NCBI GenBank assembly: GCA_017540175.1 | Contig: JAFYBN010000085.1 | Coordinates: 1 to 51,767 of the forward strand | Length of the DNA: 51,767 bases | Direction: 5' to 3' | Source: Clostridia bacterium | GTDB taxonomy: Bacteria > Bacillota > Clostridia > Oscillospirales > CAG-272 | In this document: piece after piece, positions 11,276-32,371 of the stretch | How positions within the stretch are numbered: position 1 is the first letter of the stretch | How the letters are laid out: each line of letters starts with the position of its first letter | Made by a program: the position numbers and the translations under genes | Notes under the pieces: generated by a model | What the model was told of the DNA's origin: nothing | The model's input: only the letters and a program-made list of their open reading frames with translations | Database searches by the model: none

Positions 11276-11848
11276 TTACAGGCTCCGCGCCCGGCGGTCG
11301 TTTTCGCCGAGGTCGATCTCATACCCTCCTCCGGGGCTGGGCTGCCATTCGTACCGGTTTTTCCCTTCCTCGGGGAAAAGCGCCGCCATGATCGCCGCGA
11401 TCACCCCGCCGTGCGTCACGAGCAGGGTGTCCCGTCCGTCGGAAATCAGCCGCTCCAGCCCTGCGAGCACCCGCGCCGTCATGATCCGGCCGCTTTCCCC
11501 GCCGGGGCAAATATTCGCCTCGTTGTCCCCGGTGATCCACGCGATATAATCCGGGTCGTCCTTCATTTCCTCGTAAGAACGCATTTCGAACGCGCCGCAG
11601 TCCATTTCGCGAAACGCCGGGTCCGTCTCGTGCGGGATCTCCCCGTACAGCAGGGAGAGCGTCTCTTCGCACCGCTTCATGCCGCTCGTCACAACGCGCA
11701 GTCCCTCAGCGGAAGGATACGGCGACGCTTCCTTCCGCTCGAGCAGCGCGGCCCTCCCCGCCTCCGAAAGAGGCAGATCGGTGCTCCCGCAGTAGAGGTG
11801 CTTTTCGCTCGCCTCGGTGTTCCCGTGTCGGATCAGAATCAGCTTCAT
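11276..11848 (-). CDS. cobC: Alpha-ribazole-5'-phosphate phosphatase (histidine phosphatase family)
   Basis: 190 residues with the phosphoglycerate-mutase-like catalytic core: LIRHGNTEASEKHLYCGSTD at the N-terminus (phospho-accepting His8) and LLVTHGGVIAA near the C-terminus, plus the EMDCGAFEMRSYEEM pattern typical of CobC-like members. CobC dephosphorylates alpha-ribazole phosphate or adenosylcobalamin phosphate at the end of loop assembly. The start is placed at the ATG that overlaps the upstream stop by 4 bp (ATGA); a longer in-frame ORF only covers the neighbouring gene. Position after cobT, cobU and cobS supports the role over a general phosphatase. Confidence 0.88.
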   Translation of the reverse strand: MKLILIRHGNTEASEKHLYCGSTDLPLSEAGRAALLERKEASPYPSAEGLRVVTSGMKRCEETLSLLYGEIPHETDPAFREMDCGAFEMRSYEEMKDDPDYIAWITGDNEANICPGGESGRIMTARVLAGLERLISDGRDTLLVTHGGVIAAIMAALFPEEGKNRYEWQPSPGGGYEIDLGENDRRARSL

Positions 11849-12222
11849 TTCAGTCTTTCCTCCAGTCCGCAGAAAACCCGCGTCACCGTGTCCGCCTCCG
11901 CCGCGAGATAGGCGGCGAGCCTGCCGGTCTCCTCCCGCCACGCCCGCATGTCCGCGCCGAGGGGCACCACGCCGCAGAAGATATCTTCGCAGATCAGAAC
12001 GGAGTCCGCCCACGCCGCGCGGTTTTCCCGCATGATTTCGACCGCGTCCCGCCCGTTTTTCACGCACCACAGCGCGAATTCTTCGAGCCGGTCGATGCAG
12101 CGCGCGCCGAACGCGATCCCGTCCGCTTCGGTGCAGGCAAAGACGTCGCTGTCCGTGAGCCCGAACCGTTTTTTGGCGCAGTCCAGCTTTCCCTGATACG
12201 CGCCGCCGATGATGAAATCCAT
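11845..12222 (-). CDS. Short CobU-like P-loop protein
   Basis: 125 residues beginning MDFIIGGAYQGKLDCAKKRF. The GGAYQGK stretch is a CobU-type P-loop, but the Ser/Thr normally after GK is Leu. The rest (ARCIDRLEEFALWCVKNGRD, ADSVLICEDIFCGVVPLGAD, WREETGRLAAYLAAEADTVT) matches the C-terminal half of CobU-like nucleotidyltransferases. Similar short proteins occur in cobalamin operons of Clostridia and are usually annotated as cobinamide kinase/guanylyltransferase. A full CobU lies two genes upstream, so this one may be an accessory subunit, a regulator or a second kinase. 12 bp after cobS; overlaps cobC by 4 bp. Confidence 0.75.
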   Translation of the reverse strand: MDFIIGGAYQGKLDCAKKRFGLTDSDVFACTEADGIAFGARCIDRLEEFALWCVKNGRDAVEIMRENRAAWADSVLICEDIFCGVVPLGADMRAWREETGRLAAYLAAEADTVTRVFCGLEERLK

Positions 12223-12234
12223 ATTCCGCCTCCT

Positions 12235-12987
12235 TCAGACCAGTGCGAACACCGCGATCCCGCAAAGCTCGCCGAACGTCAGCGCGTACCCCGAAATATC
12301 CCCGCTCATGCCGCCGAGGGATTTCACGCCGCGCCTCAAATGGATGAGATACCCGAGCAGCACGACGGCCGATGCAAAGCCGACCCAGCCGAGAAAGCAA
12401 AAGCCGAGCGCGGCGGCGCACGCGAGCACGAGCGACAAAAAGACGACGTGGGATTTTTTCACCCCCTGCCGATAGGTCCCCGCGTACTCGCTCACGCCGA
12501 GCGGGCGCAGGACCGTGACGCACAGGGCGGCGGCTGTCCGCGACACGACGGGGATCAGGATCAGCGCGAAAAGATTCGCGTCCTCCTTCGCCGAGGCGAA
12601 CAGCGCGAACTGCGTCATGACGAGCAGAATCCCCGCGATCACGGCGAACGAGCCGACGTTCGGGTCCTTCAAAATCCGCCGCCGCTCCTCCTCATCCCGC
12701 CACGATTTCACCGCGTCCGTCACGTCGAGGTATCCGTCCATGTGCATCCCGCCCGTGATGAGGAAGGGATACGCCGTAAGCAGCGCCGCGGAGAGGATCG
12801 CCGGGGCGGAAAGATACCGCAGCAGAAAGGCGAGCCCCGTCCAGAGGAGGCCGATCCACGCGCCGACGAAGGGCAGAAACAGGGTCATGAGCGGCCGCGC
12901 CTCCTCGTCCCAGACGTGAAAGGGGGACGGGATCGCGCAGAACATCGAAAAGCACATCGCGCACGCGCGGCAGAGTTTTTTCATCAC
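12235..12987 (-). CDS. cobS: Adenosylcobinamide-GDP ribazoletransferase (cobalamin synthase)
   Basis: 250 residues, a polytopic membrane protein of usual CobS length. The conserved acidic signature is GGMHMDGYLDVTDAVKSWRD (about residues 79-98), followed by RILKDPNVGSFAV, and SLGGMSGDISGYALTFGELC near the C-terminus. CobS joins adenosylcobinamide-GDP and alpha-ribazole (or its phosphate) to make cobalamin (phosphate) at the membrane. The start overlaps the CobU stop (ATGATGA). Confidence 0.95.
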   Translation of the reverse strand: MMKKLCRACAMCFSMFCAIPSPFHVWDEEARPLMTLFLPFVGAWIGLLWTGLAFLLRYLSAPAILSAALLTAYPFLITGGMHMDGYLDVTDAVKSWRDEEERRRILKDPNVGSFAVIAGILLVMTQFALFASAKEDANLFALILIPVVSRTAAALCVTVLRPLGVSEYAGTYRQGVKKSHVVFLSLVLACAAALGFCFLGWVGFASAVVLLGYLIHLRRGVKSLGGMSGDISGYALTFGELCGIAVFALV

Positions 12988-13526
12988 GGCATCCTCCCTT
13001 TGCGCACGACGGGGATCCCCGCCGTCATCTCGATCACGGTATCCGAAAGCTCGGCCAACAGCCGGTCGAGGGACGCGAGGTCCTTTCGGTAGTTTTCGGT
13101 GAACGCGTCGTAGCGGACGGCGTCCGAATAGAGCCAGTCCGAGACGAAAACCGCGTGCTTCGCCTCCCGTGTGAGCCGCGCGAGGCCCGCCCGGCAGCGC
13201 TCGGCCGCCGAGGGGTCGGCTTCGGCGTCGAAGGAGCCGGGGTACATTTCATTGAGCAAAAGCGCCGTCACGCTGTCGACGAGATAGGTCCCGTCCGCGC
13301 CGCCGAGCGCCGCCGCCGAGCCGATGTCCCGCGCAAGCTCCAGCGTTTCAAAGCCCTTTTCCGCCCGCTCTTCGATATGCCGCGCGATCCGCGCCCGGTC
13401 CTCGGCGTCGTAGGGGATCATGGTGGCGACGTAGAACCGTTTCCCGCCGCCACAGAGCCGAACGGCGATATCCTCGGCGAAGGCGGTCTTGCCGTTCTTC
13501 GCGCCGCCGGAAACAAATACGATCAT
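12984..13526 (-). CDS. cobU: Adenosylcobinamide kinase / guanylyltransferase
   Basis: 180 residues with an intact P-loop (VFVSGGAKNGKTAFAED, residues 3-19), the RIARHIEERAEKGFETLE stretch that carries the guanylylated His, and the YLVDSVTALLLNEMY and AVFVSDWLYSD segments. It phosphorylates adenosylcobinamide and then transfers GMP to it. The start at 13526 is set by the ATGA overlap with the end of cobT and by the family N-terminus; the longer open frame upstream is antisense-like coding of cobT in another frame. Confidence 0.93.
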   Translation of the reverse strand: MIVFVSGGAKNGKTAFAEDIAVRLCGGGKRFYVATMIPYDAEDRARIARHIEERAEKGFETLELARDIGSAAALGGADGTYLVDSVTALLLNEMYPGSFDAEADPSAAERCRAGLARLTREAKHAVFVSDWLYSDAVRYDAFTENYRKDLASLDRLLAELSDTVIEMTAGIPVVRKGRMP

Positions 13527-14641
13527 GACACGCCTCCCGGAACCGTAAAGCTGTCCGCCGCGCGGATCGGATCGAGATACCCGTCGTCGATGCGCGCCTC
13601 GGAAAACGTCGCCATGCCGTTCATCGCGGCGCACGCGGCGTCCAGCACCGCCATGGCGATGGGACAGCCGCTGCCCTCTCCGAGCCGCATGCCGAGATCG
13701 AAGAGGGGCGCGAGTCCGAGCGCGTCCATCGCGGTTTTGTATCCGATCTCCGCCGACGCGTGGGACGGAATGAGGAACGCGCCCGCCGCGGGACACAACC
13801 GCGCGGCGCAGAGCGCGGCGACGACGGAAATGAACCCGTCGATCACAGCCGGAACACGCGCTTTCGCCGCGCCGAGGAACGCCCCGGTCATCGCCGCGAG
13901 GTCAAAGCCCCCGACCTTCGAAAGCACGTCGATCGGATCGAGCGGATCGGGCCGGTTCAGCGCGATCGCTTTCTCGATCACGGAAATCTTCTTCCGATAC
14001 GCGTCTTCGGTGATGCCGCCGCCGCGTCCGGTCACGTCCCGCGCGGGCTTCCCGCACAGAACGGAAAGCACGGCGGCGGAGGTCGTCGTGTTGCCGATGC
14101 CCATTTCCCCCACGCCGAGCACGTCCGCACCTTCCCGCACCGCGTCAAGCGCGAGCTGTACCCCCGTGAGGAGCGCCTCCACGGCCTCCTCCCGCGTCAT
14201 GGCGGGGCCTTTCGCGATGTTCTTCGTGCCATAGGCGATTTTGCGGTCGATCACCGCCGGGTATGTGCCGAGATCGGCGGCCACCCCGACGTCGCAGACC
14301 CTCACCCGGCAGCCGAGCTTCGCGGCGATGGAGGACGCGCCCGTTTTGCCCCGCGTGAGCTGGACCGTCTGAGCCGCGGTCACGGACTGCGGCGCGGAGG
14401 ACACGCCTTCCTCGACGACGCCGTTGTCCGCGCAGAAGACGAGCAGGACCTTATCGTCGAGTGTATTGCAGACTCGGCCCGTGATCCCGGCGAGCCGCAC
14501 GGCCAGCTCTTCGAGCCGCCCGAGACTTCCCGGGGGCTTCGCGAGCTCTCCCTGCCTTTTCCGCGCGCTCTCCGCGGCCCGCTCATCCGCCGGCAGAATG
14601 CCGTCGATCAGCGTTTTCAGTTCCTCAAAAGCGTCCTTCAT
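13523..14641 (-). CDS. cobT: Nicotinate-nucleotide:dimethylbenzimidazole phosphoribosyltransferase
   Basis: About 372 residues. Family motifs include KPPGSLGRLEELAVRLAGI, VFCADNGVVEEGVSSAPQSV, VLGVGEMGIGNTTTSAAVLS, and RLGEGSGCPIAM with the catalytic Glu. CobT activates the lower-ligand base as alpha-ribazole phosphate. Two starts are possible. An ATG at 14680 lies inside a likely -10 box and has no Shine-Dalgarno, whereas the ATG at 14641 follows GGAGG by 5 bases. The latter is used. First gene of the leftward loop-assembly arm. Confidence 0.94.
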   Translation of the reverse strand: MKDAFEELKTLIDGILPADERAAESARKRQGELAKPPGSLGRLEELAVRLAGITGRVCNTLDDKVLLVFCADNGVVEEGVSSAPQSVTAAQTVQLTRGKTGASSIAAKLGCRVRVCDVGVAADLGTYPAVIDRKIAYGTKNIAKGPAMTREEAVEALLTGVQLALDAVREGADVLGVGEMGIGNTTTSAAVLSVLCGKPARDVTGRGGGITEDAYRKKISVIEKAIALNRPDPLDPIDVLSKVGGFDLAAMTGAFLGAAKARVPAVIDGFISVVAALCAARLCPAAGAFLIPSHASAEIGYKTAMDALGLAPLFDLGMRLGEGSGCPIAMAVLDAACAAMNGMATFSEARIDDGYLDPIRAADSFTVPGGVS

Positions 14642-14678
14642 GCCCGCCTCCGCGCCGCGCGCTCGTTTTGTCTGCTTC

Positions 14679-14707
14679 ATTGTACATCAACCCCGCGAAA
14701 AAAGCAA
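14679..14707 (-). promoter_or_regulatory. Probable promoter of the leftward cobT operon
   Basis: Minus strand: TTGCTT (14702-14707), 17 bp spacer, TACAAT (14679-14684). The -10 box overlaps the more distal candidate ATG of cobT, which argues for the start at 14641 and a leader near 30 nt. That leaves no room for a riboswitch on this arm. Confidence 0.6.
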
Positions 14708-15478: not shown

Positions 15479-15922
15479 ATGAACGACGGCAGTTATGAAA
15501 TCGGCGTCTCCCTCTCCGGCGGGACCGGGCGCGCTTCGGTCGCCTCCCCGGCAGAGCTCACCGTATCGGGCGGGGAAATGACCGCGAAGATCGAATGGAG
15601 CAGTCCCTATTACGATCTCATGGTCGTCGGCGGCGAGCGGTATCTGCCCGTCAACACCGACGGCAATTCCGTTTTTCTCATCCCGGTCGACGACCTCTCC
15701 GTCCCCCTCGGCTTTGAGGCGGAAACCCTCGCCATGAGCGACCCCCACCTCATCGGGTACGAGCTGCGCTTCGACGCGGATTCGCTCCGACCGCTCCGGC
15801 CGACCAATAACGCGCTCCCGTGGATCATCGGGGCCGCCTTCGCCGTCCTCTGCGCCGCGGCCGCCGCGCTGACCCTTCTGAAGCTGAAGCGGAAGCGCCG
15901 CGGGGCGAAAACAGCGTCATGA
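15479..15922 (+). CDS. NEAT-like surface-domain protein with C-terminal anchor, signal peptide missing
   Basis: 147 residues. Residues 3-100 form a beta-rich domain (DGSYEIGVSLSGGTGRASV, WSSPYYDLMVVGGERYLPVN, TLAMSDPHLIGYELRFD), followed by one membrane segment (PWIIGAAFAVLCAAAAALTL) and a basic tail. The pattern recalls the NEAT-type beta-sandwich domains that bind heme at Gram-positive surfaces. Riboswitch control and the BtuFCD genes next door suggest a corrinoid instead. No in-frame signal peptide exists: a TGA lies 33 bp before the ATG, and AAAGGA gives a plausible start. The N-terminus therefore looks lost, perhaps by insertion of the 15303-15395 repeat. The stop overlaps btuF (ATGA). 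It is related to the 19749 protein. Confidence 0.7.
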   Translation: MNDGSYEIGVSLSGGTGRASVASPAELTVSGGEMTAKIEWSSPYYDLMVVGGERYLPVNTDGNSVFLIPVDDLSVPLGFEAETLAMSDPHLIGYELRFDADSLRPLRPTNNALPWIIGAAFAVLCAAAAALTLLKLKRKRRGAKTAS

Positions 15923-17070
15923 CCAAGAAATCCTTTCCCTTCGCCGCTCTCCTTCCCCTGCTCGCGGCGGCGATCCTCTTCTCCGCCCTCCTTGCCTCGT
16001 GCGCAGCGGGCGGGAAGAAAGCTGCGCCCGAGCCCCCCGAGATCCCGGGATACGGCGAGCCGGTCCGCGTCCCGAACGCCGCCGCGGAATGCTTTTCGAT
16101 CTGGCGGTACGAGAGCGGCGATTCCCTGATCCTCACGGACGACGGGCAGACGTATCTGATTTATGAGGGCGCCGCGCCCGCGGATCTGCCGCCGTCGGTC
16201 ACCGCGATCCCGCGCGATCCGGAGCGCGTCTATATGGCGGCGAGCGCGGTGATGTCCTTCTGGGACGCGCTCGGCAAGCTCCCTTCCGTTTCGTTCTCCG
16301 CCCTCGAGGCGGACGACTGGGACATCGAAAACGCCCGCGCCGCCATGGAGCGCGGCGAGATCGTCTACGCGGGGCGCTACCGGGAGCCGGATTACGAGCT
16401 GCTCCTCTCCGGCAAATGCGTGCTGAGCGTCCAGTCCACCATGTCGGAGCACGTGCCGAAGGTGCGCGAAAAGCTGACCGAGCTCGGCATCCCCGTTTTC
16501 GTGGACCGCTCGAGCTATGAACCCGCCCCCCTCGGGCGATGCGAATGGGTGCGGGTCTACGCCGAGCTCACGGGCGTCCCCGAGCTGGGCGACACCCTCT
16601 TCGCGGAGCAGAAGGCGCATTTCGACGCGCTTGATGCGTCCGCGGACAGCGGCAAAACCGTCGCCTTCTTCTACATCTCCGCGTCCGGCAAGATCGTCAC
16701 CCGGCGGTCCGGGGACTACATCACGAAAATGATCTCTCTGGCGGGCGGGCACAACGTCTTCGACTTTGAAGGAGAGGACAACGCCCTCTCGTCCGTCACC
16801 CTCAATCCGGAGGAATTCTATCTCCGTGCGAAGGACGCGGACGTCATCATCTACAACGCGAACATCGGCGGCGAGATCTCCTCGATCGACGAGCTGATTT
16901 ACAAAAACGACCTGCTTGCCGGTTTCCGGGCGGTGAAGAACGGCGACGTTTGGCTCATGGGCAGCTCCGCCTATCAGGACACCATGAAAATGGGGCAGAT
17001 CCTCACCGATTTTCACACGGTCTTTTTTGGCTCCGCCGACGAGCCCGTGTATCTCAGAAAGCTGAAATGA
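15919..17070 (+). CDS. btuF: Corrinoid ABC transporter substrate-binding lipoprotein (BtuF-like)
   Basis: 383 residues. The start is the ATG overlapping the previous stop. A hydrophobic signal ends in the lipobox LLASC (Cys28). Then comes a type III periplasmic-binding fold (Peripla_BP_2), including TAIPRDPERVYMAASAVMSF, REPDYELLLSGKCVLSVQST, IPVFVDRSSYEPAPLG and AVKNGDVWLMGSSAYQD. This family serves iron-siderophore, heme and cobalamin importers. The cobalamin riboswitch and surrounding cbi genes point to a corrinoid. A roughly 60-residue segment between the Cys and the canonical domain start is longer than in simple BtuF and may be an extra strand region. Confidence 0.85.
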   Translation: MTKKSFPFAALLPLLAAAILFSALLASCAAGGKKAAPEPPEIPGYGEPVRVPNAAAECFSIWRYESGDSLILTDDGQTYLIYEGAAPADLPPSVTAIPRDPERVYMAASAVMSFWDALGKLPSVSFSALEADDWDIENARAAMERGEIVYAGRYREPDYELLLSGKCVLSVQSTMSEHVPKVREKLTELGIPVFVDRSSYEPAPLGRCEWVRVYAELTGVPELGDTLFAEQKAHFDALDASADSGKTVAFFYISASGKIVTRRSGDYITKMISLAGGHNVFDFEGEDNALSSVTLNPEEFYLRAKDADVIIYNANIGGEISSIDELIYKNDLLAGFRAVKNGDVWLMGSSAYQDTMKMGQILTDFHTVFFGSADEPVYLRKLK

Positions 17071-17077
17071 GCGTTCC

Positions 17078-18091
17078 ATGAAACAGAAAAACCGGATCAT
17101 TTTGTCCTTTGCCCTGCTCATCCTGCTCGCTCTCGTCTTCGTCTTCCTCGGCATCTCCGCCGGAAGCGCGTCCATCTCCCCCGGCGAAATGCTCCGGGTC
17201 TTTCTCGGCAGGAGCAAGGACGCGACGGCGGCCGCGATCCTTTTCGGGCTGAGGGTGCCGCGCACGCTGGCCGCCCTCGTGCTCGGCGGCGCGCTCGCGC
17301 TCGCGGGCTATATGCTGCAGACCTATTTCCACAATCCCATTGCGGGTCCCTTCGTTCTCGGCATCTCGTCCGGGGCGCGGCTGACGGTCGCTCTCTCCCT
17401 GATCGCGGCGGAGCACGGAGCGATTCTGCTCAATTCCGCCATGCTCACAGGTGCCGCGTTCATCGGAGCGCTGATTTCCATGTCGGCGGTCCTGCTTCTT
17501 TCGTCGCGGGTGAAAAACATGTCCATGCTCGTCGTCGCGGGCGTCATGATCGGATACATCTGCACGGCGATCACGGACATTCTCGTGAGTTTCGCCGACG
17601 ACAGCGACATCGTGAACCTGCGCGGCTGGTCCATCGGCTCCTTCTCCGGCATGAAGGGGGAGGCGCTTTCGGCCGCCGCCCTGGTGGTCGGCGTCTCCGT
17701 GTTCGCCGTCTTTCTGCTCTCGAAGCCCATCGGCGCGTATCAGCTCGGCGAGAGCTACGCGGCGGACGCCGGGGTCAACGTGCGGGCGGTGCGCGTCGCG
17801 ATGATCCTTCTCTCGAGTCTTCTCTCCGGGTGCGTGGCGGCGTTCGCGGGTCCCGTGTCCTTTGTGGGGATTGCAGTGCCCTTCCTCGTAAAAACGCTCT
17901 TCGGGACGGCGAAGCCCCTCGTGATGGTTCCGGCGTGCTTTCTCGGCGGCGGGGTCTTCTGCATCCTCGCGGACATCATCGCCCGGACGGTAGTTTCTCC
18001 CGCCGAGCTCGGCATCAGCACGGTGACGGCGGTCCTCGGCGCGCCCGTGGTGCTCGTCATCATGATGAAAAGGAGGAGGGGCGATGCTTGA
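17078..18091 (+). CDS. btuC: Corrinoid ABC transporter permease (BtuC/FecCD family)
   Basis: 337 residues, polytopic, FecCD family. It carries GLRVPRTLAALVLGGALALA, then YFHNPIAGPFVLGISSGARL, the LRGWSIGSFSG turn, and GPVSFVGIAVPFLVK with the cytoplasmic coupling region. BtuC dimers form the channel for cobalamin in the membrane. It lies 7 bp after btuF and overlaps btuD by 8 bp, so the three form one importer. Confidence 0.9.
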   Translation: MKQKNRIILSFALLILLALVFVFLGISAGSASISPGEMLRVFLGRSKDATAAAILFGLRVPRTLAALVLGGALALAGYMLQTYFHNPIAGPFVLGISSGARLTVALSLIAAEHGAILLNSAMLTGAAFIGALISMSAVLLLSSRVKNMSMLVVAGVMIGYICTAITDILVSFADDSDIVNLRGWSIGSFSGMKGEALSAAALVVGVSVFAVFLLSKPIGAYQLGESYAADAGVNVRAVRVAMILLSSLLSGCVAAFAGPVSFVGIAVPFLVKTLFGTAKPLVMVPACFLGGGVFCILADIIARTVVSPAELGISTVTAVLGAPVVLVIMMKRRRGDA

Positions 18092-18827
18092 GGTCAAAGA
18101 ACTCTCCGCGGGATACGGCAGCCGGGTGATCGCCCGCGGCATCACGTTCACGGTCCGGGAGGGAGAGATCCTCTCCATGATCGGTCAGAACGGCTCCGGC
18201 AAATCCACGATCTTAAAAACCCTCGCCGGTCAGCTCCCGCCCCTTTCGGGGGAGATCCGAATCGGCGGCGTCCCCGTGTCGTCCATGAAGCGGAACGAAT
18301 TCGCCCGGCAGGTTTCCGGGCTCTTCACCGAACGCCCGAAAACCGAGCTCATGACCTGCCGGGACGTGGTGGAGACCGGACGCTATCCCTATACGGGCGC
18401 GTTCGGACTGCTCGGAGAAGCGGATAAGCGCGCCGTCTCCGAGGCGATGCGCCTGACGGAAACCGAGGAACTCTCCTCCGTCTCCTTCGGCGAGATCAGC
18501 GACGGACAGAAACAGCGGGTCATGCTCGCGCGGGCGGTCTGCCGGGAGCCGAAGCTCCTTCTGCTCGACGAGCCGACCTCGTTCCTCGACATCCATTATA
18601 AACTCACCTTTCTCGAAATGCTCGACCGCCTGCGGCGCGAACGAAAGCTCGCCGTCGTCATGTCCCTTCACGAGACGGAGCTCGCGGCGAAGATTTCGGA
18701 CACGGTGCTCCTCCTCAAAAACGGGGAATGCGCGGGGCTCGGTCCGCCGCGCTCCCTGCTCGGCACACAGGCCCTCACCGCGCATTTCGATCTCAGCCCG
18801 GAGCTCTGGGAAAAATACTACGGCTGA
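18084..18827 (+). CDS. btuD: Corrinoid ABC transporter ATPase (BtuD-like)
   Basis: 247 residues with Walker A GQNGSGKSTILKTLAGQL, signature FGEISDGQKQRVMLARAVC (a variant with ISDGQ in place of LSGGQ), Walker B LLLLDEPTSFLDIHY and switch His in VVMSLHETELA. Iron/cobalamin-type ABC ATPases share this layout. It drives import by the btuFC partners. The ISDGQ signature is common in the iron-chelate importer ATPases of Clostridia. Confidence 0.9.
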   Translation: MLEVKELSAGYGSRVIARGITFTVREGEILSMIGQNGSGKSTILKTLAGQLPPLSGEIRIGGVPVSSMKRNEFARQVSGLFTERPKTELMTCRDVVETGRYPYTGAFGLLGEADKRAVSEAMRLTETEELSSVSFGEISDGQKQRVMLARAVCREPKLLLLDEPTSFLDIHYKLTFLEMLDRLRRERKLAVVMSLHETELAAKISDTVLLLKNGECAGLGPPRSLLGTQALTAHFDLSPELWEKYYG

Positions 18828-18884
18828 TACGGGCCCGTCCCGTTCAGATATATCACTACTCACCATCAAGGGAGGAAAGACATC

Positions 18885-19742
18885 ATGAAACTCTTAAGAA
18901 TCGGCGCGTTCGCGCTCGCCGCCGTCCTCTGCGTCCTCGCGCTCGCTTCCTGCGGCTCGGGATCGAAGAAGCCCGTGATCCTCGTGGTCAGCTTCGGCAC
19001 GAGCTACAACGACAGCCGCGAAGTCACCATCGGCGGGATCGAAAAGGCCATTCAGGCAGCGAACCCGGACAAGGAAGTGCGCCGCGCGTTCACGAGCCAG
19101 ATCATCATCGACAAGCTGAAGAGCCGCGACAACATTGAAATCGACAACGTCGAAGAAGCGTTTGCGAGACTCAAGAAGGACGGCGTGAAGGAGCTGATCG
19201 TTCAGCCGACGCACGTCATGAGCGGTTACGAATACGACGATCTCATGAAGGTCGTCAACGCCGAAAAGAGCAATTTCACAAGCGTCAAGGTCGGCGCGCC
19301 CCTTCTCACCTCCGACGCGGACTATGACGCCGTGATCGCGGCGATCACCGCCGCCACCGCGGAATACGACGACGGCAAGACCCTCATCACCTTCATGGGT
19401 CACGGCACGGAGCATGCCTCCAACGCCACCTACGCGAAGCTGCAGGAAAAGCTCACCGCCGCCGGCAAGAGCAATTACTGCGTCGGCACCGTCGAGGCGG
19501 AACCCTCTCTTGAAGACGTGATCGCCGCCGCGAAGGCGGGCGGCTACACCAGAGTGGTGCTCGAGCCCCTGATGGTCGTCGCGGGCGACCACGCAAACAA
19601 CGACATGGCGGGCGACGAGGAAGACAGCTGGAAGACCGTCCTTCAGGGCGAGGGCTTCGAGGTCGTTCCGGTCCTGAAGGGCCTCGGCCAGATCGAAGCG
19701 GTGCAGGCGGTCTACGTCGCGCACGTCGCGGCCGCGAAATAA
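18885..19742 (+). CDS. cbiK: Sirohydrochlorin cobaltochelatase, lipoprotein form (CbiK)
   Basis: 285 residues. A signal peptide with lipobox LASC (Cys23) precedes a CbiK domain: KKPVILVVSFGTSYNDSREV, QPTHVMSGYEYDDL, TFMGHGTEHASNATY, GTVEAEPS and EPLMVVAGDHANNDMAG. His173, Glu204 and His236 match the order and spacing of the metal-binding His-Glu-His set of CbiK. CbiK inserts Co2+ into sirohydrochlorin, the committing step of the anaerobic route. The lipobox would place it outside the membrane. An exported CbiK is known in Desulfovibrio, but its substrate would have to be outside. It may therefore deliver or store metal-tetrapyrrole rather than serve only synthesis. Strong GGGAGG site; the next gene starts 6 bp later. 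Confidence 0.9.
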   Translation: MKLLRIGAFALAAVLCVLALASCGSGSKKPVILVVSFGTSYNDSREVTIGGIEKAIQAANPDKEVRRAFTSQIIIDKLKSRDNIEIDNVEEAFARLKKDGVKELIVQPTHVMSGYEYDDLMKVVNAEKSNFTSVKVGAPLLTSDADYDAVIAAITAATAEYDDGKTLITFMGHGTEHASNATYAKLQEKLTAAGKSNYCVGTVEAEPSLEDVIAAAKAGGYTRVVLEPLMVVAGDHANNDMAGDEEDSWKTVLQGEGFEVVPVLKGLGQIEAVQAVYVAHVAAAK

Positions 19743-19748
19743 AGAACG

Positions 19749-20312
19749 ATGGACATACGGAAAATTTCCCTGCTTGTCCTTTGCGCACTCCTCGCGGCGC
19801 TCTCCTCCGTCCCCGCTTTCGCGGCGGACAAGGAGGGGACGCCCCTGTACGCCGCCGATATCCAAAACGGCGTGTATGAAAACGTAGCGGTCGATTCGAC
19901 CTCGTCCATGTTCCGCGTCATCGCCTGCACGCTCACCGTGACGGACGAGGGCATGACGGCGCACATGACCCTGAGCGGTCAGGGCTTCGGCAAGCTCTAT
20001 CTCGGACGGGGCGAGGCCGCCCGCGGCGAAGACGAGAGCGCGTTCTATCCCTTCGGCGACGACGGCGAGGGTCATCACACCTTTGACATCCCCGTCGAAG
20101 CGCTGGACAAGCCCCTCCCCTGCGCCGGATGGAGCATCAAGAGGGAGGAGTGGTTCGACCGGGACATCACCTTCCGCTCGGACTCCCTGCCCGAGGGCGC
20201 GGTGATTCGAAAAGCAGGGGCGTCGTGGCTCCCTGTCGCGGCGGCCTCGGCGGCCGTGATCGCCCTCGGCGCGGCCTTCGCCTTCTTCGCCATCCGCAAA
20301 AAGAAATCATAA
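19749..20312 (+). CDS. NEAT-like surface protein with signal peptide and C-terminal membrane anchor
   Basis: 187 residues. The signal peptide (MDIRKISLLVLCALLAALSS, cleavage after AFA) is followed by a beta-rich domain (about 35-150) and a single membrane helix (WLPVAAASAAVIALGAAFAF) with a KKK tail, giving an outside-facing type I protein. The domain aligns by eye with the 15479 protein: GVY..S.S..F at its start, LTV.(D)EGMTAHMTLSG, a glycine-aromatic strand GKLYLGRGEAA, TFDIPVEALDKPL, and ITFRSDSLPEG before the anchor. Function is not established. Position between cbiK and cbiA, under the cobalamin riboswitch, suggests capture or hand-off of a corrinoid or cobalt-tetrapyrrole. Confidence 0.72.
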   Translation: MDIRKISLLVLCALLAALSSVPAFAADKEGTPLYAADIQNGVYENVAVDSTSSMFRVIACTLTVTDEGMTAHMTLSGQGFGKLYLGRGEAARGEDESAFYPFGDDGEGHHTFDIPVEALDKPLPCAGWSIKREEWFDRDITFRSDSLPEGAVIRKAGASWLPVAAASAAVIALGAAFAFFAIRKKKS

Positions 20313-20317
20313 GAAAC

Positions 20318-20397
20318 AAACCGCCGCCGCATGACGGCAGGGTTCTGCCGCAGTCCGTTCCGCTCTGCGGCAAAACCTGTTTCAGGCGGCGGCTTTT
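20318..20397 (+). terminator. Intra-operon hairpin, possible partial terminator
   Basis: CCGCCGCC (20321-20328) pairs with GGCGGCGG (20385-20392), followed by CTTTT; an inner CCGCAG/CTGCGG pair extends the fold. It sits between the uptake half and the cbi half of the superoperon. The short T run suggests attenuation rather than a full stop, or an RNA processing point. Confidence 0.5.
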
Positions 20398-20411
20398 GTG
20401 GAGGTGTTCCC

Positions 20412-21773
20412 ATGACGAAAGCTCTTCCGCGCGTTCTCATCGCCGGCACGTCGAGCGGATGCGGCAAGACCACGGCGGTCTGCGCGCTCCTCACCCTGAT
20501 GAGGCGCCGGGGCGTCCGCGTGACGGCGGCGAAATGCGGCCCCGATTACATCGACCCGATGTTCCACGAGACCGCGCTCGGCGTCCCCTCCGCAAACCTC
20601 GATCCCTTTTTTTGCGACGGGAACCTGCTCCGCGCCCTGCTCGCCGAACAGCAAGGGACGCTTTCCGTCATAGAGGGCGTCATGGGCTACTACGACGGCA
20701 CGGGCGCGGACGGAACGGAAAACAGCACATACACGGTCGCGCGGGAGACGGATACGCCCGCCGTGCTCGTCGTGAACGGAAGAGGCGCGTCCGCCTCCCT
20801 GCTCGCCGTGCTCGAAGGCTTTCTCAACTTCACGCCCGCAAGCGGCATCCGCGGCGTGCTCTTCTCCGGCATGACGGCGATGACCTATTCCCTCGTAAAG
20901 CGGCTCGCCAAGGAACGCTTCGGAGAGCGGATCACCCTGCTCGGCTTCATCCCCCGTCTGCCGGAGGACTGCGTACTCCCCTCCCGCCACCTCGGACTCG
21001 TGACCGCCGGGGAGCTCGAAAATCTGCGGGCGATCCTTGAGAGGATCGCCGATCTGTGCGAACGCGAACACTCGGTCGATCTCGACGCGCTGCTCGCGCT
21101 CGCCGCCTCCGCCCCCGCCCTCGAGTTCGAGCCGCGGGAAATCCCCCGCGTCGACGGGGTCAGGCTTGCGCTCGCCCGCGACGCGGCGTTCTGCTTCATC
21201 TACCCCGACACACTGCGCCTCTTTGAGAAAATGGGCGCTGAGATCCTCCCGTTCTCCCCCCTGAACGACGAGGCGGTGCCCTCTTCGGCGGACGGACTGC
21301 TCCTTCCGGGAGGCTACCCGGAGCTCTACGCCGAGCGGCTCGAAAAGAACGAAACCTTCCGCTTAAGCGTGAAACGGGCTGTGCTCGCCGGTATGCCGAC
21401 GATCGCCGAATGCGGGGGCTTTCAGGTCCTCGGCAGCTCGCTCGACGGGCATGAAATGTGCGGCCTGCTTCCCCACGAAAGCCGCAATACGGGCAAACTC
21501 GTCCGCTTCGGCTACTGTACGCTCACGTCCGGCACGGACGGTCTGCTCGGGCCCGCGGGCACGACCCTGAGGGCGCACGAATTCCACTACTACGACAGCA
21601 CGGACAACGGCCGCGGCATGACCGCCGCAAAGCCGAACGGGAAGAGCTGGGAATGCGCGGTGCATACGGAAACGCTGTACGCCGGGTATCCCCATCTGTT
21701 CCTGCCCTCCGCCCTGCCCTCGGCGGAGGCATTCTGCAGAAAATGTCTTGCGTTTAAGGAGAAAAGAACATGA
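20412..21773 (+). CDS. cbiA: Cobyrinate a,c-diamide synthase
   Basis: 453 residues. The N-terminal DTBS/MinD-like P-loop (VLIAGTSSGCGKTTAVCALL) and KCGPDYIDPMFHE precede a C-terminal class I glutamine amidotransferase domain with the nucleophile in TIAECGGFQVLGSS and SNT-like RAHEFHYYDST. CbiA amidates the a and c carboxylates of cob(II)yrinate using glutamine and ATP. The start at 20412 follows GGAGG by 7 bases; an in-frame ATG 81 bp upstream lies in the hairpin and is rejected. Overlaps cbiC by 4 bp. Confidence 0.95.
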   Translation: MTKALPRVLIAGTSSGCGKTTAVCALLTLMRRRGVRVTAAKCGPDYIDPMFHETALGVPSANLDPFFCDGNLLRALLAEQQGTLSVIEGVMGYYDGTGADGTENSTYTVARETDTPAVLVVNGRGASASLLAVLEGFLNFTPASGIRGVLFSGMTAMTYSLVKRLAKERFGERITLLGFIPRLPEDCVLPSRHLGLVTAGELENLRAILERIADLCEREHSVDLDALLALAASAPALEFEPREIPRVDGVRLALARDAAFCFIYPDTLRLFEKMGAEILPFSPLNDEAVPSSADGLLLPGGYPELYAERLEKNETFRLSVKRAVLAGMPTIAECGGFQVLGSSLDGHEMCGLLPHESRNTGKLVRFGYCTLTSGTDGLLGPAGTTLRAHEFHYYDSTDNGRGMTAAKPNGKSWECAVHTETLYAGYPHLFLPSALPSAEAFCRKCLAFKEKRT

Positions 21774-22387
21774 TCATCACCGATCCCGCCGCCATCGAAG
21801 CGCGGAGCATGCAGATCATCGAGAGTGAACTGAAAACCGAAATCCCCGAAGAAAACCGCGCCGTCGTGAAGCGCGTCATCCATGCGACGGCGGATTTCGA
21901 CTACGCCGAAAACCTCGCGTTCTCCCCCGGAGCGGTCGAAAAGGCGCTCGCCGCCCTCGGGCGCGGCTGCCGCATCGTCACGGACACCCAGATGGCGAAG
22001 TCCGGCATCAACAAAACGGCGGCGGGCAAGCTCGGATGCGAGATCGTCTGCTTCATGAGCGACCCGGACGTCGCCGAGGAAGCAAAGGCCCGGGGCTGCA
22101 CCCGCGCGCAGGTCTCGATGGAAAAGGCGGCTCAGCTCGGCGGGGAGACGATCTTCGCCATCGGCAACGCGCCGACCGCCCTGCTCGCCCTCAGGGAGCT
22201 GATGGACGAAGGAAAGGTCTCCCCCGCCCTCGTCATCGGGGTCCCTGTCGGCTTTGTCAACATTCTCGAATCAAAGGACGCGATCCTCTCCTCCTCCGTG
22301 CCCCACATCGTGGCGAGGGGCAGAAAAGGCGGCTCCACCGTAGCTGCCGCGATCGTCAACGCCCTCATGTATCAGCTCGCGCGTTAA
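21770..22387 (+). CDS. cbiC: Cobalt-precorrin-8 methylmutase
   Basis: 205 residues, usual CbiC length. Motifs include IEARSMQIIESEL near the start, RVIHATADFDYAENLAFSPG with the catalytic His, IVTDTQMAKSGINKT, AIGNAPTALLALREL, and GVPVGFVNILESKDAILS. It moves the C11 methyl group to C12, giving cobyrinate. The ATG overlaps the cbiA stop. Confidence 0.96.
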   Translation: MIITDPAAIEARSMQIIESELKTEIPEENRAVVKRVIHATADFDYAENLAFSPGAVEKALAALGRGCRIVTDTQMAKSGINKTAAGKLGCEIVCFMSDPDVAEEAKARGCTRAQVSMEKAAQLGGETIFAIGNAPTALLALRELMDEGKVSPALVIGVPVGFVNILESKDAILSSSVPHIVARGRKGGSTVAAAIVNALMYQLAR

Positions 22388-22590
22388 GCAAAGAAAACAA
22401 ATCCGTCAAAACGGATCCGTAATAAAAACAAAAACCGCCCCTTCCCCTTTTCTGAAATGTTTTCGCCCGGCGTCGCCCGGCGAAAACCGCCGCAAGAAAC
22501 CCGCGACGCCTTCGGCTGGGCGGCTCAGCGAACCGCTGACGGGCGGCTCTATCATCCTTCATCAGCCCTTTCAGGGCGCATATCTGCTAT
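22388..22590 (+). other. Intra-operon gap with two hairpins before cbiD
   Basis: A 203 bp spacer breaks the otherwise tight cbi run. ATCCGT/ACGGAT hairpin near 22407-22422, then TTTTCGCC/GGCGAAAA flanking a GC-rich loop near 22461-22487. No AGGAGG-like site lies before the cbiD ATG. This may be an inserted repeat or an RNA processing/attenuation site. No gene was seen in it. Confidence 0.55.
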
Positions 22591-23730
22591 ATGGACAGCT
22601 TTATCACAAAAGACGGCAAAAAGCTCCGCCGCGGCTACACGACCGGCTCGTGCGCGGCGGCGGCTTCCAAGGCGGCCGCGCTCATGCTGCTCGGCGGCGC
22701 GGAGCTTCAAACGGTTTATCTCATGACCCCGCGCAGCATCGGGCTCACCCTCGCCGTGAAGGACACCATCCGAAGAGAGGACTTCGTCTCCTGCGGCATC
22801 ATCAAGGACGGCGGGGACGACCCCGACGTCACAAGCGGCATCACCGTTTACGCGAAGGTCGAAAAAACGCCCGTCCCCGGCGAGGTCCTGATCGACGGCG
22901 GGGAGGGCGTCGGGCGGGTGACCAAGCCCGGCCTCGATCAGCCCGTCGGACAGGCCGCCATCAATTCCACCCCGCGCCGCATGATCACCGCGGAGCTGCG
23001 TCAGGTCATGGAGGACTGCGGATACACGGGCGGGCTGAAAGTCACGATCTCCGCGCCCGAAGGGGTCGAGATCGCGAAGAAGACCTTCAATCCCCGGCTC
23101 GGCATCGTCGGAGGGCTCTCCATCCTCGGCACCACCGGGATCGTCGAGCCCATGAGCGACGAGGCCGTCGTCGAAACCATCCGGACGGAGCTTTCCATGC
23201 GGGCAGCGGCGGGGGCGAAAACGGTCCTCTTCGTCCCCGGCAATTACGGCGCGGACTTTCTGAAAAGCGAGCTCGGCATCGACCCGGAGAACGCCGTCAC
23301 GACCTCCAACTTCATCGGCGACGCCTTTTCCCTCGCCGCGGAGGCGGGATTCGAAGGCGCGCTGCTCGTCGGACACATCGGCAAGCTCGTCAAACTCGCG
23401 GGCGGGATGTTCAATACCCATTCCCGCTATGGGGACTGCCGCGCGGAGATCTTCGCGGCGCACGCCGGACTCTGCGGCGCGTCCGCCGAGGTGATCCGGC
23501 AGATCATGGACAGCGCCATGACCGACTCCATGCTCGCGATCCTCGAAGATGCGGGACTTCGGGAGGCGGTCATGGAAAGCGTCACCGACAAAATCGGAGA
23601 AATGCTCGCGCATCACCGCGCGTCCGCAGGCATGAGAACGGGGGCCGTCATCTTCTCGAACGTGTACGGCTTTCTCGGGCGGACGGACGCGGCGGGAGAA
23701 CTGCTCGAAGCAATCAGAAAGGAATTTTGA
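22591..23730 (+). CDS. cbiD: Cobalt-precorrin-5B C1-methyltransferase
   Basis: 379 residues. The family start KDGKKLRRGYTTGSCAAAAS is present, followed by IIKDGGDDPDVTSGI, GVGRVTKPGLDQPVGQAAIN, GIVGGLSILGTTGIVEPMSD and GALLVGHIGKLVKLAGGMFN. CbiD methylates C1 using S-adenosylmethionine after ring contraction. The ATG at 22591 fits the family N-terminus but lacks a recognisable ribosome binding site. 1 bp before cbiF. Confidence 0.95.
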   Translation: MDSFITKDGKKLRRGYTTGSCAAAASKAAALMLLGGAELQTVYLMTPRSIGLTLAVKDTIRREDFVSCGIIKDGGDDPDVTSGITVYAKVEKTPVPGEVLIDGGEGVGRVTKPGLDQPVGQAAINSTPRRMITAELRQVMEDCGYTGGLKVTISAPEGVEIAKKTFNPRLGIVGGLSILGTTGIVEPMSDEAVVETIRTELSMRAAAGAKTVLFVPGNYGADFLKSELGIDPENAVTTSNFIGDAFSLAAEAGFEGALLVGHIGKLVKLAGGMFNTHSRYGDCRAEIFAAHAGLCGASAEVIRQIMDSAMTDSMLAILEDAGLREAVMESVTDKIGEMLAHHRASAGMRTGAVIFSNVYGFLGRTDAAGELLEAIRKEF

Positions 23731-23731
23731 C

Positions 23732-24487
23732 ATGGTACACATCGTCGGAGCGGGGTGCGGCGCGGCGGACCTCATCACCCTGCGCGGAAAACGCCTCATC
23801 GGGGAGGCCGACGTGATCGTCTACGCCGGCTCCCTCATCAATAAGGAACTGCTCGGCTTCGCGAAGCCGGACTGCCTCCTGTACGACAGCGCGAAAATGA
23901 CCCTCGAGGAAACCACCGCGACCATCGCGGAGGCGGAGCGAGACGGCAAAACCACCGTCCGGCTCCATTCCGGGGACCCCTCCCTCTACGGCGCGATCGC
24001 GGAGCAAATGCGGGAATTCGACCGGCTGGGCATCGCGTACGACATCACACCCGGCGTCAGCGCCTTTTCGGGCGCGGCGGCGGCGCTGAAGACCGAATAC
24101 ACCCTGCCGGACGTAACGCAGACCGTCATCATTACCCGCGCGGCGGGCAGAACGCCAGTCCCGGAGGCGGAGAGTCTTCGCTCGCTCGCCTCCCACGGCG
24201 CGACGATGACCCTGTTCCTCAGCGCCGGTCTGCTCGAGCAGGTGACGGAGGAGCTCACGGCGGGGGGCATGTCCCCCTCCACACCCGCCGCCATCGTCTA
24301 TAAGGCCTCGTGGCCGGACGAGAAAATCTGCCGCTGCACCGTCGGCACACTCGCCGAGGCCGCGCGGGAAAACGGCATTTCAAAAACCGCCCTCATCGTC
24401 GTCGGGCGCGCGCTCGGCGAGAGCTTTTCCCGCTCGAAGCTGTACGACCCGTCCTTCTCGACGGAATACCGGGAGAAGAGCGTATGA
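23732..24487 (+). CDS. cbiF: Cobalt-precorrin-4 C11-methyltransferase
   Basis: 251 residues of the tetrapyrrole methylase fold. [20 protein letters not shown] opens the SAM site, [12 protein letters not shown] and [18 protein letters not shown] are CbiF/CobM signatures, [15 protein letters not shown] follows, and [14 protein letters not shown] ends the second domain. It methylates C11 of cobalt-precorrin-4. Overlaps cbiG by 4 bp (ATGA). Confidence 0.95.
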
Positions 24488-25593
24488 AAACCGCTCTCAT
24501 CTGCTTTTCGGACGCGGGCGCGGCGCTCTCGTGCCGGCTGTGCTCCCTGCTCGGGCTCGAGCCGTCGTCCGTGCATTCCGTGCGCAAGTTTGCCGAAAAA
24601 TACGGCTTCACGCCCCATGAAAAAATCAGCGCGGATATGGGGGAGCTGTTTTCGGCGCACGAAGCCCTTCTTTTCGTCGGCGCGTGCGGGATCGCGGTGC
24701 GCAGCATCGCCCCCCACCTCAAAAGCAAGACGGAGGACCCCGCCGTGCTCGTGCTCGACGACCGGGGGCGCTTTGTCATTCCAATCCTGTCCGGGCACAT
24801 CGGCGGGGCGAACGAGCTCGCGCGCTCTCTGGCGGATCAGCTCGGCGCCGAGGCCGTGATCACCACGGCGACCGACGGCGCGGGGCGCTTCTCCTGCGAC
24901 GCATGGGCGAAGACCCACGACTGCGCGATCTCCTCCATGGACGCGGCGAAGGCGGTGTCCGCGGCGATCCTCACGCGGGACGTGCCGATCACGTCGGAGC
25001 CGGAGTTCCCCCTGCCGGGCGATCTGCCAGGCGGTCTGCCGGGCGATCTGCCAGGCGGTCTGCCGGGCAGTCTGCCGGGCGGTCTGCCGGGCGGTCTGCC
25101 GGGCGGTCTGACAAGGGGCGGCTCGGGGGACATCGGGATCTATATCGGTGTGCGCACGCACGAGCCGTTTGAGACGACCCTGCGGCTCATTCCGCGCGCC
25201 GTCACGCTCGGCATCGGGTGCCGCAGGGGGATTTCGGCGGACGCGGTCAAAGCGGCGATCGAAAAAACGCTCGGAGAGAACGGAATCGACCTGAGGTCGG
25301 TGACGAAAATCGCGTCCGTCGATCTCAAAAAGGACGAGGCGGGGCTCTGCGCCTCAGCGCGCGATCTCGGAGCGGAGCTTGTGTTTTATTCCGCCGAAGA
25401 GCTCGCCGCCGTGCCGGGGAGCTTTACGGAATCGGAATTCGTGAAAAAGACGGTCGGCGTCGGAAACGTCTGCGAACGCGCCGCCGTGCTCGGGTGCGGG
25501 GCAAAGGACGCCTCTGCCCTGCTCATGAAAAAAACGGCGGAAAACGGCGTAACAGTCGCCGCCGCCGTACGGGATCGGAGGATCGTATTTTGA
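24484..25593 (+). CDS. cbiG: Cobalt-precorrin-5A hydrolase with an expanded repeat linker
   Basis: 369 residues. The N-terminal domain begins [19 protein letters not shown]. The conserved [40 protein letters not shown] and [20 protein letters not shown] follow, and the CbiG_C domain begins at [19 protein letters not shown]. CbiG opens the delta-lactone and releases the C2 unit as acetaldehyde. Between middle and C-terminal domains, residues 177-208 are eight PG-rich tetrapeptides ([12 protein letters not shown]) encoded by 12 bp tandem repeats, which is unusual for CbiG. Start set by the ATGA overlap with cbiF. Confidence 0.95.
25012..25107 (+). repeat. Eight 12 bp tandem repeats inside cbiG
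   Basis: Units of CTGCCGGGCGGT with variants GAT, AGT and CCAGGC run in frame from 25012 to 25107. Because the period is 12, copy changes add or remove four residues without a frameshift. They lie in the linker between the CbiG middle and C-terminal domains. Confidence 0.95.
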
Positions 25594-26318
25594 AAAAACT
25601 GACAGTGATCGGCATCGGCGCGGGGAATTACGACGGGCTGACCGTCGCCGCCGCCCGCGCGCTCGAAGCGGCGGACGTGATCGTGGGCTACACGGTCTAC
25701 TGCGACCTCATGAAGCCGTATTTCCCCGATAAAGAATGGATCTCAACTCCCATGATGCGGGAGATCGAGCGCTGCCGCCTCGCCCTGGAGACCGCGGACG
25801 ACGAAAAGAAGACCGTCATGATCTGCTCCGGCGACGCGGGCGTCTACGGTATGGCGTCCCCCGTTCTCGAGCTCGCCCCGGAATATAGAGCCGAGATCGA
25901 GATCATCCCCGGCGTGACGGCGGCGTGCTCCGGCGCGGCTCTGCTCGGCTCGCCCCTGACCGCGGATTTCGCGGCGATCAGCCTCTCCGACCTGCTCACG
26001 CCGTGGGAGGTCATCGAAAAGCGGCTCCGCGCCGCGGCCGAGGGCGATTTCTGCACCGTGCTCTACAACCCCTCAAGCAAAAAGCGCGCGGACTATCTGA
26101 GGGCCGCCTGCGAGATCTTCCTCGCCGTCAGAGCCCCCGAAACCGTCTGCGGCATCGCACGCAGCATCGGACGGGAGGGGGAAGAAACAAAGCTCATGAC
26201 GCTCTCCGAGCTGAAGGAATACGAAGCGGACATGTTCACGACGGTCTTCATCGGGAACTCTTCGACCGTCGTCATCGACGGAAAAATGGTGACGCCGCGG
26301 GGGTACCGAAATGTGTAA
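25590..26318 (+). CDS. cbiH: Cobalt-precorrin-3B C17-methyltransferase
   Basis: 242 residues, tetrapyrrole methylase. [88 protein letters not shown] and [13 protein letters not shown] are CbiH/CobJ signatures. It methylates C17 and drives ring contraction. The start is a TTG overlapping the cbiG stop (TTGA), with GGAGGA at 25577-25582, 7 bases upstream. Confidence 0.95.
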
Positions 26319-31865: not shown

Positions 31866-32371
31866 TCCATCTCTATCACGGCGACGGCAAGGGCAAGACC
31901 ACGGCGGCGGTCGGGCTTGCTGCCCGGGCGGCGGGCGCGGGGATGCGCGTGCTGTTCGCGCAGTTCTTCAAGGACGGCTCGTCCTCGGAAATCGCCTCGC
32001 TGAACCTGCTGCCCGGCGTCACGACAGCTCATCCCGGCCTGCACTACGGACGCTTCAAAACCATGACCGACAAGCAGCGCTCCGAGATCCATCAAAGCTA
32101 CTGTGCCATGCTGAGCGACGTCATCCGCCGCGCCGCGGACTTCGATCTGATCGTGCTCGACGAGGCAGTGTCCGCCTTCGGCTACGGCATGCTCGAAAAG
32201 GATGAGCTGCTCGGATTTCTCCGGGACGAGGGCGGCAGACGGGAGATCGTTCTCACCGGCCGCAATCCCGCGCCCGAGCTCAAAAAACTCGCCGATTACG
32301 TCACGGAAATGAAAAAAGAAAAGCACCCCTTCGACGTCGGCGTCACCGCGCGGCGAGGGGTGGAGTATTGA
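31862..32371 (+). CDS. cobA: Corrinoid adenosyltransferase (CobA/CobO type)
   Basis: 169 residues, P-loop [20 protein letters not shown], then [38 protein letters not shown] and [20 protein letters not shown]. CobA/CobO transfers the 5'-deoxyadenosyl group from ATP to cob(I)yrinate or cobinamide. It is last in the rightward superoperon. The 32372-32502 gap holds a GC-rich palindrome (GTCCCGCGGGAC) but no T-run terminator. Confidence 0.94.

Follow-up and report, generated by a model that had tools for sequence, protein, structure and literature searches.

Why should a CbiK-type chelatase carry a lipoprotein signal, and why should its gene lie between those of a vitamin B12-type importer and a membrane-anchored domain? 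The question is raised by a 51,767-nucleotide contig of a Clostridia bacterium (Oscillospirales, CAG-272; GenBank assembly GCA_017540175.1, contig JAFYBN010000085.1), the whole of which we call the window. Here, a cobalamin riboswitch heads an operon that encodes, in order, an anchored domain (NT1), a BtuFCD-like ATP-binding cassette (ABC) importer, CbiK, and a second anchored domain (NT2), with corrin and late cobalamin genes downstream (Table 1). An initial annotation, whose gene calls and positions are borne out by the Pfam matches, proposed that this module could be the corrinoid or cobalt-tetrapyrrole counterpart of the NEAT relay that passes heme to an importer. Our results support that proposal: the two domains are alike in structure, and their homologues lie mainly under cobalamin control. 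The ligand, the direction of the chelatase reaction, and transport are what we infer from these findings. Tentatively, we lean toward a module for cobalamin-controlled surface uptake of an early cobalt tetrapyrrole of the sirohydrochlorin type, with cobalt inserted outside the membrane, an answer that we hold to be plausible rather than probable. With somewhat more reserve, we suggest that it may constitute a new B12 route, in which bacteria unable to make uroporphyrinogen III, and hence precorrin-2, would salvage rings of the sirohydrochlorin type from neighbouring organisms, the lipoprotein CbiK would insert cobalt into them outside the membrane, NEAT-derived surface domains would hand them to the BtuFCD-type importer, and the corrin would be finished inside.

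The module was followed in two samples. A scan for short peptide patterns of NT1 across 84,980 species genomes gave 34 related loci (L numbers; their genomes have G numbers), and an independent, even draw of the order gave 295 genomes. Of the module proteins, CbiK is the best conserved, with 86% identity between the window and L024 (nonsynonymous rate dN 0.10, synonymous rate dS 0.67). It passes the Pfam cut-off of PF06180 with 284.1 bits against 26.2 and falls short of that of the sirohydrochlorin cobaltochelatase equivalog NF047852 (242.2 of 400 bits); its closest relatives in the PDB are FetB (184 bits), Salmonella CbiK (181 bits), and D. vulgaris CbiKP (156 bits). The catalytic residues of CbiK are His145 and His207 in Salmonella numbering (PMC7689651; this and the papers below are cited for the parts covered). 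His173 and His236 of the window protein align with these residues in 1qgo, and 37 of the 38 CbiK domains aligned have histidine at both positions, the last having a gap; the alignment includes two signal-less second copies, from L027 and L036. At the positions of His96 and His103 of D. vulgaris CbiKP, which we take to be its heme ligands, the window protein has Asp118 and Asn125, and no histidine occurs there in the 38 domains, one of which is gapped. The lipobox noticed initially (LASC, Cys23) holds up, and a lipobox cysteine follows a hydrophobic start in 30 of 33 other loci as well, by motif reading rather than a signal predictor. Exceptions are L051 and L054, which have a signal-like start and no lipobox, and L048, which is cut; in the 34th locus, L038, no CbiK lies in reach. 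Judged by its residues, the module CbiK is apparently an intact class II cobaltochelatase.

The domains of NT1 and NT2, first compared by eye, prove to be homologous in a profile-profile comparison (probability 97.8%, E 9.8e-13). AlphaFold models of both match NEAT structures first in a fold search, and both have the NEAT beta-sandwich fold. At the level of sequence the relationship is distant. In the window, NT1 stays below the gathering cut-off of PF05031 (11.8 of 32.8 bits) and NT2 has no match; among relatives, NEAT ranks first of the families matched at E up to 1 for 25 of 35 NT1 domains (best E 4.7e-7) and 22 of 32 NT2 domains (best E 8.7e-6). A PDB sequence search with both profiles returned no NEAT match for NT1 and one at only E 0.02 for NT2, so it is the fold search that settles the assignment; a PHROGs search gave no matches. 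NEAT domains are known to carry heme, and YxxxY in the last strand is the heme-iron ligand motif of those that bind it. NT1 mostly has HxxxY instead (33/35, with YxxxY in 2/35), compared here as a sequence motif rather than by side-chain superposition. The order sample agrees, with HxxxY in 16 of 19 readable cases, YxxxY in two, and RxxxY in one, and the aligned end of NT2 is of the WYDH/WYDR type. Here, NEAT domains whose ligand motif is changed form part of a system under B12 control.

The initial annotation also gave both proteins a C-terminal anchor. For NT1 the hydrophobic C-terminus stands, as read from the sequence rather than with a transmembrane predictor; the protein has no signal peptide. 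Upstream of 15479, none was found in the three forward frames read, and none that convinces was seen in NT1 of L023–L026, which makes a local sequencing error in the window unlikely; a signal in a missed frame was considered and ruled out by the same readings. In other relatives (L010, L038, L045), a signal-like start does precede NT1. The window NT1 begins at the NEAT domain itself (15479–15595), behind an AGGA-type ribosome-binding site, and L023–L026 are similar.

Cobalamin control, claimed initially for the window, is confirmed there and extends to the relatives: RF00174 lies upstream, on the same strand, in 30/34 loci. The four without a call are L038 and L048, which are cut by the contig start, and L025 and L026, which have less than 2 kb upstream. 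In 31 loci, one of them the window, the module gene that follows the riboswitch most closely is CbiK (on its own or as a fusion) in 27, NT1 in three, and BtuF in one. The importer matches PF01497, PF01032, and PF00005 and misses the B12-specific equivalog cut-offs (BtuC NF003001, 192 of 334 bits; corrinoid ATPase NF007082, 191.5 of 537 bits), so its B12 specificity rests on context. The sole NCBIfam match of BtuF is a weak one to the heme protein IsdE (19.7 of 298.65 bits), and the second-best model for BtuD is a heme ATPase (175.7 of 261 bits). In the order sample, NT1 occurs in 21 of 295 genomes; leaving the window genome aside, 17 of the other 20 have CbiK and 19 have BtuF no more than 1.5 kb from NT1.

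That the two domains bracket BtuFCD and CbiK, as described initially, is true of the window and is a minority layout elsewhere. It recurs in L023, L024, and L110 (where a longer stretch shows CbiK and NT2 also present), and L025 and L026 have a variant of it in which NT2 and CbiK are fused. The usual form, in 20 of 34 loci, is NT2-NT1 as one separate protein beside CbiK and BtuFCD. CbiK-NT2 or CbiK-NT2-NT1 fusions occur in eight loci and NT-BtuF fusions in four; NT1 and NT2 are separate in two, and NT1 stands alone at a contig start in one. L034 is counted in both fusion classes, and since frames run from stop to stop, a few joins may be read-through. BtuD and CbiD share a single open frame in L107 (8134-, 1054 amino acids) and L108 (7175-, 674 amino acids), likewise stop to stop, so that the importer ATPase is apparently fused to a corrin ring enzyme. 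As read from these frames, the NT-CbiK, NT-BtuF, and BtuD-CbiD fusions link the surface parts and the importer with a corrin ring enzyme. L025 offers two further observations: tandem CbiK domains (two) are joined to NT2 in a single 709-amino-acid protein (5157–7286), and a flavodoxin gene (PF00258, 1246–1788) overlaps the NT1 start, as though the operon of this locus included a reductase.

Within the order sample we considered the 63 of 295 genomes with a TIGR01467-type (corrin-type methylase) match; G107, which has NT1 and no such match, was left out. NT1 is present in 16/24 genomes without HemC and in 4/39 with it (Fisher p 4.7e-6). The association is similar with at least two TIGR01467-type matches (16/23 versus 4/35, p 9.1e-6) and among CbiL-bearing genomes (6/10 versus 3/34, p 0.0019; 43 above the cut-off plus G051, partial, at 134 bits). 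Counted by genus and state it is 11/18 versus 4/22 (p 0.0086), a count that removes relatedness only partly, and 11 genera of the order include genomes that have NT1 and lack HemC. The NT1 query was one sequence, and some misses are possible.

The window genome, 93.5% complete, belongs to the class without HemC, for which the search (control positive in 11 of 14 known genomes) gave no match. Its best CbiL candidate reaches 31.6 bits against a cut-off of 163, no true match, and cbiL is not among the corrin and cobalamin genes at 20331..32371. Four tetrapyrrole (TP) methylases are among the matches listed: three are the window's CbiF, CbiH, and CbiE, distinguished by position and length, and the fourth is RsmI-like by length. 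CobA seems to be absent too, although no search aimed at it was made. PF06180 finds one CbiK, the exported one, and PF01903 finds the same gene alone; a second, cytosolic chelatase was sought with both models and not found. The corrin genes that remain are under purifying selection, with dN/dS of 0.12–0.17 between the window and L024 (dN and dS, respectively: CbiC 0.11 and 0.86, CbiD 0.15 and 0.88, CbiF 0.12 and 0.83). This selection holds although neither genome has HemC or a CbiL-level match, and it makes these genes unlikely to be relics.

Of 35 genomes in all, the window genome and those of the related loci, 17 have a HemC match and 18 have none. In each of the 17 HemC-positive genomes, the matches listed include a TP methylase that is placed like CobA, no more than 3 kb from HemC. 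CbiK is present in 34/35, the exception being G310, the genome of L038. Signal-less second copies of CbiK occur in seven of the 17 HemC-positive genomes (six read, one judged by frame length) and in none of the 18 HemC-negative ones (p 0.0029); in G297 the second copy is exported as well. CbiL is present in 11 of the 18 HemC-negative genomes; in 10 it exceeds the cut-off, and in G300 it scores 160.4 bits. One of the 11 is the genome of the isolate Hespellia stercorisuis DSM 15480; the isolate Agathobacter ruminis JK623 has neither. In eight HemC-negative genomes (L088–L095, surroundings taken as open reading frames), CbiL lies mostly apart from other cobalamin genes, and in L096, L097, and L099 (G317, G310, and G300) it has other cbi genes around it. 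Whether CbiL belongs to a second uptake locus was also considered, and the idea was dropped, as only G295 among L088–L095 has a second NT2-NT1 gene nearby. That gene (L117:4571-5665, on contig C46 of G295, the genome of L023) lies 3′ of cbiL and an ABC ATPase gene and is followed by a BtuC-like fragment; it encodes a lipobox and a C-terminal anchor, lacks the HxxxY histidine in its NT1 part, and is silent in Pfam at E 0.001.

These findings bear on the ligand as follows. A cell without HemC cannot use 5-aminolevulinic acid (ALA) or porphobilinogen, and if CobA is missing as well, uroporphyrinogen III is unusable too. The first enzymes kept in the HemC-negative, CbiL-positive genomes are CbiK, outside, and CbiL, inside, and the simplest supply is therefore an imported, cobalt-bearing ring of the sirohydrochlorin type. 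In the window genome, the lack of HemC and of a CbiL-level match, together with a single, exported CbiK, shifts the likeliest ligand from a finished corrinoid toward an early cobalt tetrapyrrole. Where CbiL is kept, the ligand is likely sirohydrochlorin or cobalt-sirohydrochlorin; where it is absent, as in the window genome, the ligand is possibly a C20-methylated cobalt-factor III. In the mechanism that we propose, the membrane-anchored, divergent NEAT-fold domains would hold the ring at the cell surface, lipoprotein CbiK would load Co(II) into it, or swap its metal, outside the membrane, and BtuF would hand the product to BtuCD for import. The imported ring would then join the corrin pathway of a cell unable to make uroporphyrinogen III and hence precorrin-2.

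Several observations weigh against this mechanism. HemC is retained in 17 of the 35 module genomes, so the module does not serve precursor-less cells alone, and 10 of these 17 show a single CbiK, the module copy. CbiL is missing from 14 of the 24 HemC-negative genomes of the order, including the window genome (NT1 is present in 10 of the 14, and 10 are 95–100% complete). For this class even cobalt-sirohydrochlorin would be insufficient; the ring supplied would have to be further along the pathway, for instance cobalt-factor III. G319, G320, G321, and G327 have two TP-methylase matches each among those listed, too few for the corrin pathway proposed here. Conversely, eight of the 24 HemC-negative genomes have no NT1 match, and stretches of seven of these were read (all but G036). 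G293 and G218 have CbiK without a signal near cbi genes, which indicates that HemC loss also arises without the module; G069 has BtuFCD and neither NT nor CbiK in the stretch; and G019, G023, G092, and G114 have cbi genes and no module in the stretches read. The material itself calls for caution: the 34 loci were chosen by short NT1 peptide patterns and are not a random sample, most genomes are draft metagenome-assembled genomes, no search was aimed at CobA itself (the 18 HemC-negative genomes were judged from the TP-methylase matches listed), and free sirohydrochlorin in gut or rumen fluid finds no support in the literature covered. A mixed substrate range, of early rings and finished corrinoids, would fit the genomes that lack CbiL, are poor in TP methylases, or keep HemC.

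Import of finished corrinoids alone is the main rival to uptake of an early ring. NEAT-like domains would capture cobamides or cobinamide for BtuFCD, and the exported CbiK would hold corrinoid or cobalt, or trim ligands, with no role on a precursor. The riboswitch upstream of the window module and of 30/34 others agrees with such import, as do the best NCBIfam matches of the permease and ATPase (BtuC and the corrinoid ATPase, though both are below cut-off) and the retention of the module in the 17 HemC-positive genomes and in the four with two listed TP methylases. Cobalamin, however, needs no metal insertion; catalytic histidines in 37/38 CbiK domains, in the best-conserved protein of the module, would be odd for a mere holder, and purifying selection still acts on the corrin genes of genomes that lack HemC. 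We regard this explanation as possible and rather doubtful.

It is unlikely that the module acquires iron from heme or siroheme, with NEAT domains binding heme and exported CbiK stripping the iron. The closest PDB relative of CbiK, FetB, is named as heme-binding, the NEAT structures matched by our models are heme proteins, and the weak IsdE match of BtuF and the second-ranking heme ATPase model of BtuD point the same way. A comparable part is proposed for IhtB of P. gingivalis, thought to take iron from heme (PMC10913741). We rate this explanation low, although no search for Fur boxes was made, because of the B12 riboswitch in 30/34 loci, the prevalence of HxxxY over YxxxY in NT1 in both samples, and the lack of histidine, in any of the 37 domains readable there, at the presumed heme-ligand positions of CbiKP.

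Pathway decay also appears improbable. Early genes would have been lost once B12 uptake arose, the remaining cbi genes would be vanishing, and the link between module and HemC would be a by-product. The graded loss of HemC, then CbiL, then nearly all TP methylases looks like decay, but corrin genes with dN/dS of about 0.1–0.2 between the window and L024 do not, nor does the recurrence of NT1 without HemC in 11 genera. Very improbable, finally, is cobalt scavenging, in which exported CbiK and NEAT-like domains would gather Co(II) and the importer would carry a small cobalt chelate: B12 does require cobalt, and cobalt transporters too are among the targets of B12 riboswitches, but the substrates of FecCD/BtuCD-type importers are large chelates, the ligands of NEAT folds are planar tetrapyrroles, and the missing HemC would go unexplained.

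Coordinates are collected in Table 1. The ATG of BtuF overlaps the NT1 stop codon. The gap between riboswitch and NT1 (15029–15478, ~450 nucleotides) is the largest among 31 loci compared, with L045 near; no inverted repeat was found in it, and a CCCTCTCC-GAGGGAGG stretch at 15348 is not above chance within the window. In cbiG, a GxLPG-type tandem repeat (24980–25120) separates the N and C domains of CbiG. Elsewhere, a surface-type protein of 1540 amino acids (39505–44127, minus strand) contains several near-identical DAKDEAQQSADALAQPGDSEE repeats.

Table 1. The uptake module and the cobalamin genes around it in the window.
Feature	Coordinates	Strand	Evidence and remarks
Cobalamin riboswitch RF00174	14797..15028	+	90.4 bits (gathering cut-off 31.5), full model 1–189; heads the operon
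NT1 protein, 147 amino acids	15479..15922	+	NEAT-fold domain residues 1–106 (15479–15796); C-terminal hydrophobic anchor; K/R-rich tail; no signal peptide
BtuF-like substrate-binding protein	15919..17070	+	PF01497, 105.5 bits; lipobox read from sequence
BtuC-like permease	17078..18091	+	PF01032, 240.9 bits
BtuD-like ATPase	18084..18827	+	PF00005, 109 bits
CbiK with lipoprotein signal (LASC, Cys23)	18885..19742	+	PF06180, 284.1 bits; class II chelatase, apparently intact; His173 and His236
NT2 protein, 187 amino acids	19749..20312	+	Signal peptide; NEAT-fold domain 19848–20219; C-terminal hydrophobic anchor
cbiA, cbiC, cbiD, cbiF, cbiG, cbiH, cbiJ-ET, cbiB, cobD-like aminotransferase, cbiP, btuR	20331..32371	+	Downstream corrin and late cobalamin genes
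cobT, cobU, cobS, cobC-like phosphatase	11276..14680	-	Divergent nucleotide-loop genes; PF02277, PF02283, PF02654, PF00300

The module is found in gut and rumen Clostridia, more commonly in those without an early B12 step, and may serve to put cobalt into a scavenged precursor before it is taken up. It would offer a concrete answer to how bacteria that have a corrin pathway and lack its first steps obtain the precursor. If so, cobalt-tetrapyrrole exchange would be a hidden currency within the communities of gut and rumen. Cobalt insertion, which is normally a step of biosynthesis in the cytosol, would become part of nutrient capture. Exported CbiK homologues of other phyla, such as IhtB/FetB and CbiKP, might then need to be read anew. 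It will be worthwhile to examine this in the isolate Hespellia stercorisuis DSM 15480, in which uptake of an early ring is directly testable.

Among known systems, the Isd heme system pairs an ABC importer with a NEAT relay. The Isd-type relays (IsdX1/IsdX2, IsdA/B/C/H, Hbp2) share with our module the NEAT beta-sandwich, surface anchoring, and an adjoining ABC importer; they differ in that the window proteins fall below the PF05031 cut-off, most NT1 domains have HxxxY rather than YxxxY, and the module adds a B12 riboswitch, a chelatase partner, and anchors in the form of a hydrophobic C-terminus or a lipobox. The IhtABCDE system of P. gingivalis, which is not Fur-controlled, likewise combines a lipoprotein CbiK homologue, IhtB (FetB), thought to strip iron from heme, with a binding protein, a permease, and an ATPase (PMC10913741), in an organism without the steps to precorrin-2 (PMC6461909). 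There, a TonB-dependent receptor takes the place of the NEAT domains, and the system is read as one for iron from heme. CbiKP of D. vulgaris (2xvx) is exported to the periplasm, and at the positions of its heme-binding histidines the module CbiK has other residues. In Desulfovibrio, as in our module, CbiK and BtuCDF share one B12 riboswitch, a single B12 element lying over cbiK-cbiL and btuCDF (PMC545781); the parts of that source covered name no NEAT domains, and the de novo pathway is nearly complete there. The salvagers of tetrapyrrole precursors, mostly Firmicutes, resemble the module genomes in having a corrin pathway without early steps and a predicted imported precursor (PMC6461909, Shelton et al.). 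ALA dependence was verified in three species, and the parts of that paper covered do not mention an importer, a surface protein, or a chelatase that is exported. BtuFCD and CbrT are listed as importers of B12 vitamers in incomplete-pathway genomes (PMC6593275). Among the matches listed in our literature search, in the parts covered, we found no link between NEAT domains and cobalamin and no exported CbiK accompanied by NEAT domains. Both the NEAT relay and the exported CbiK are of known kinds, and it is possibly their job in this module that is new.

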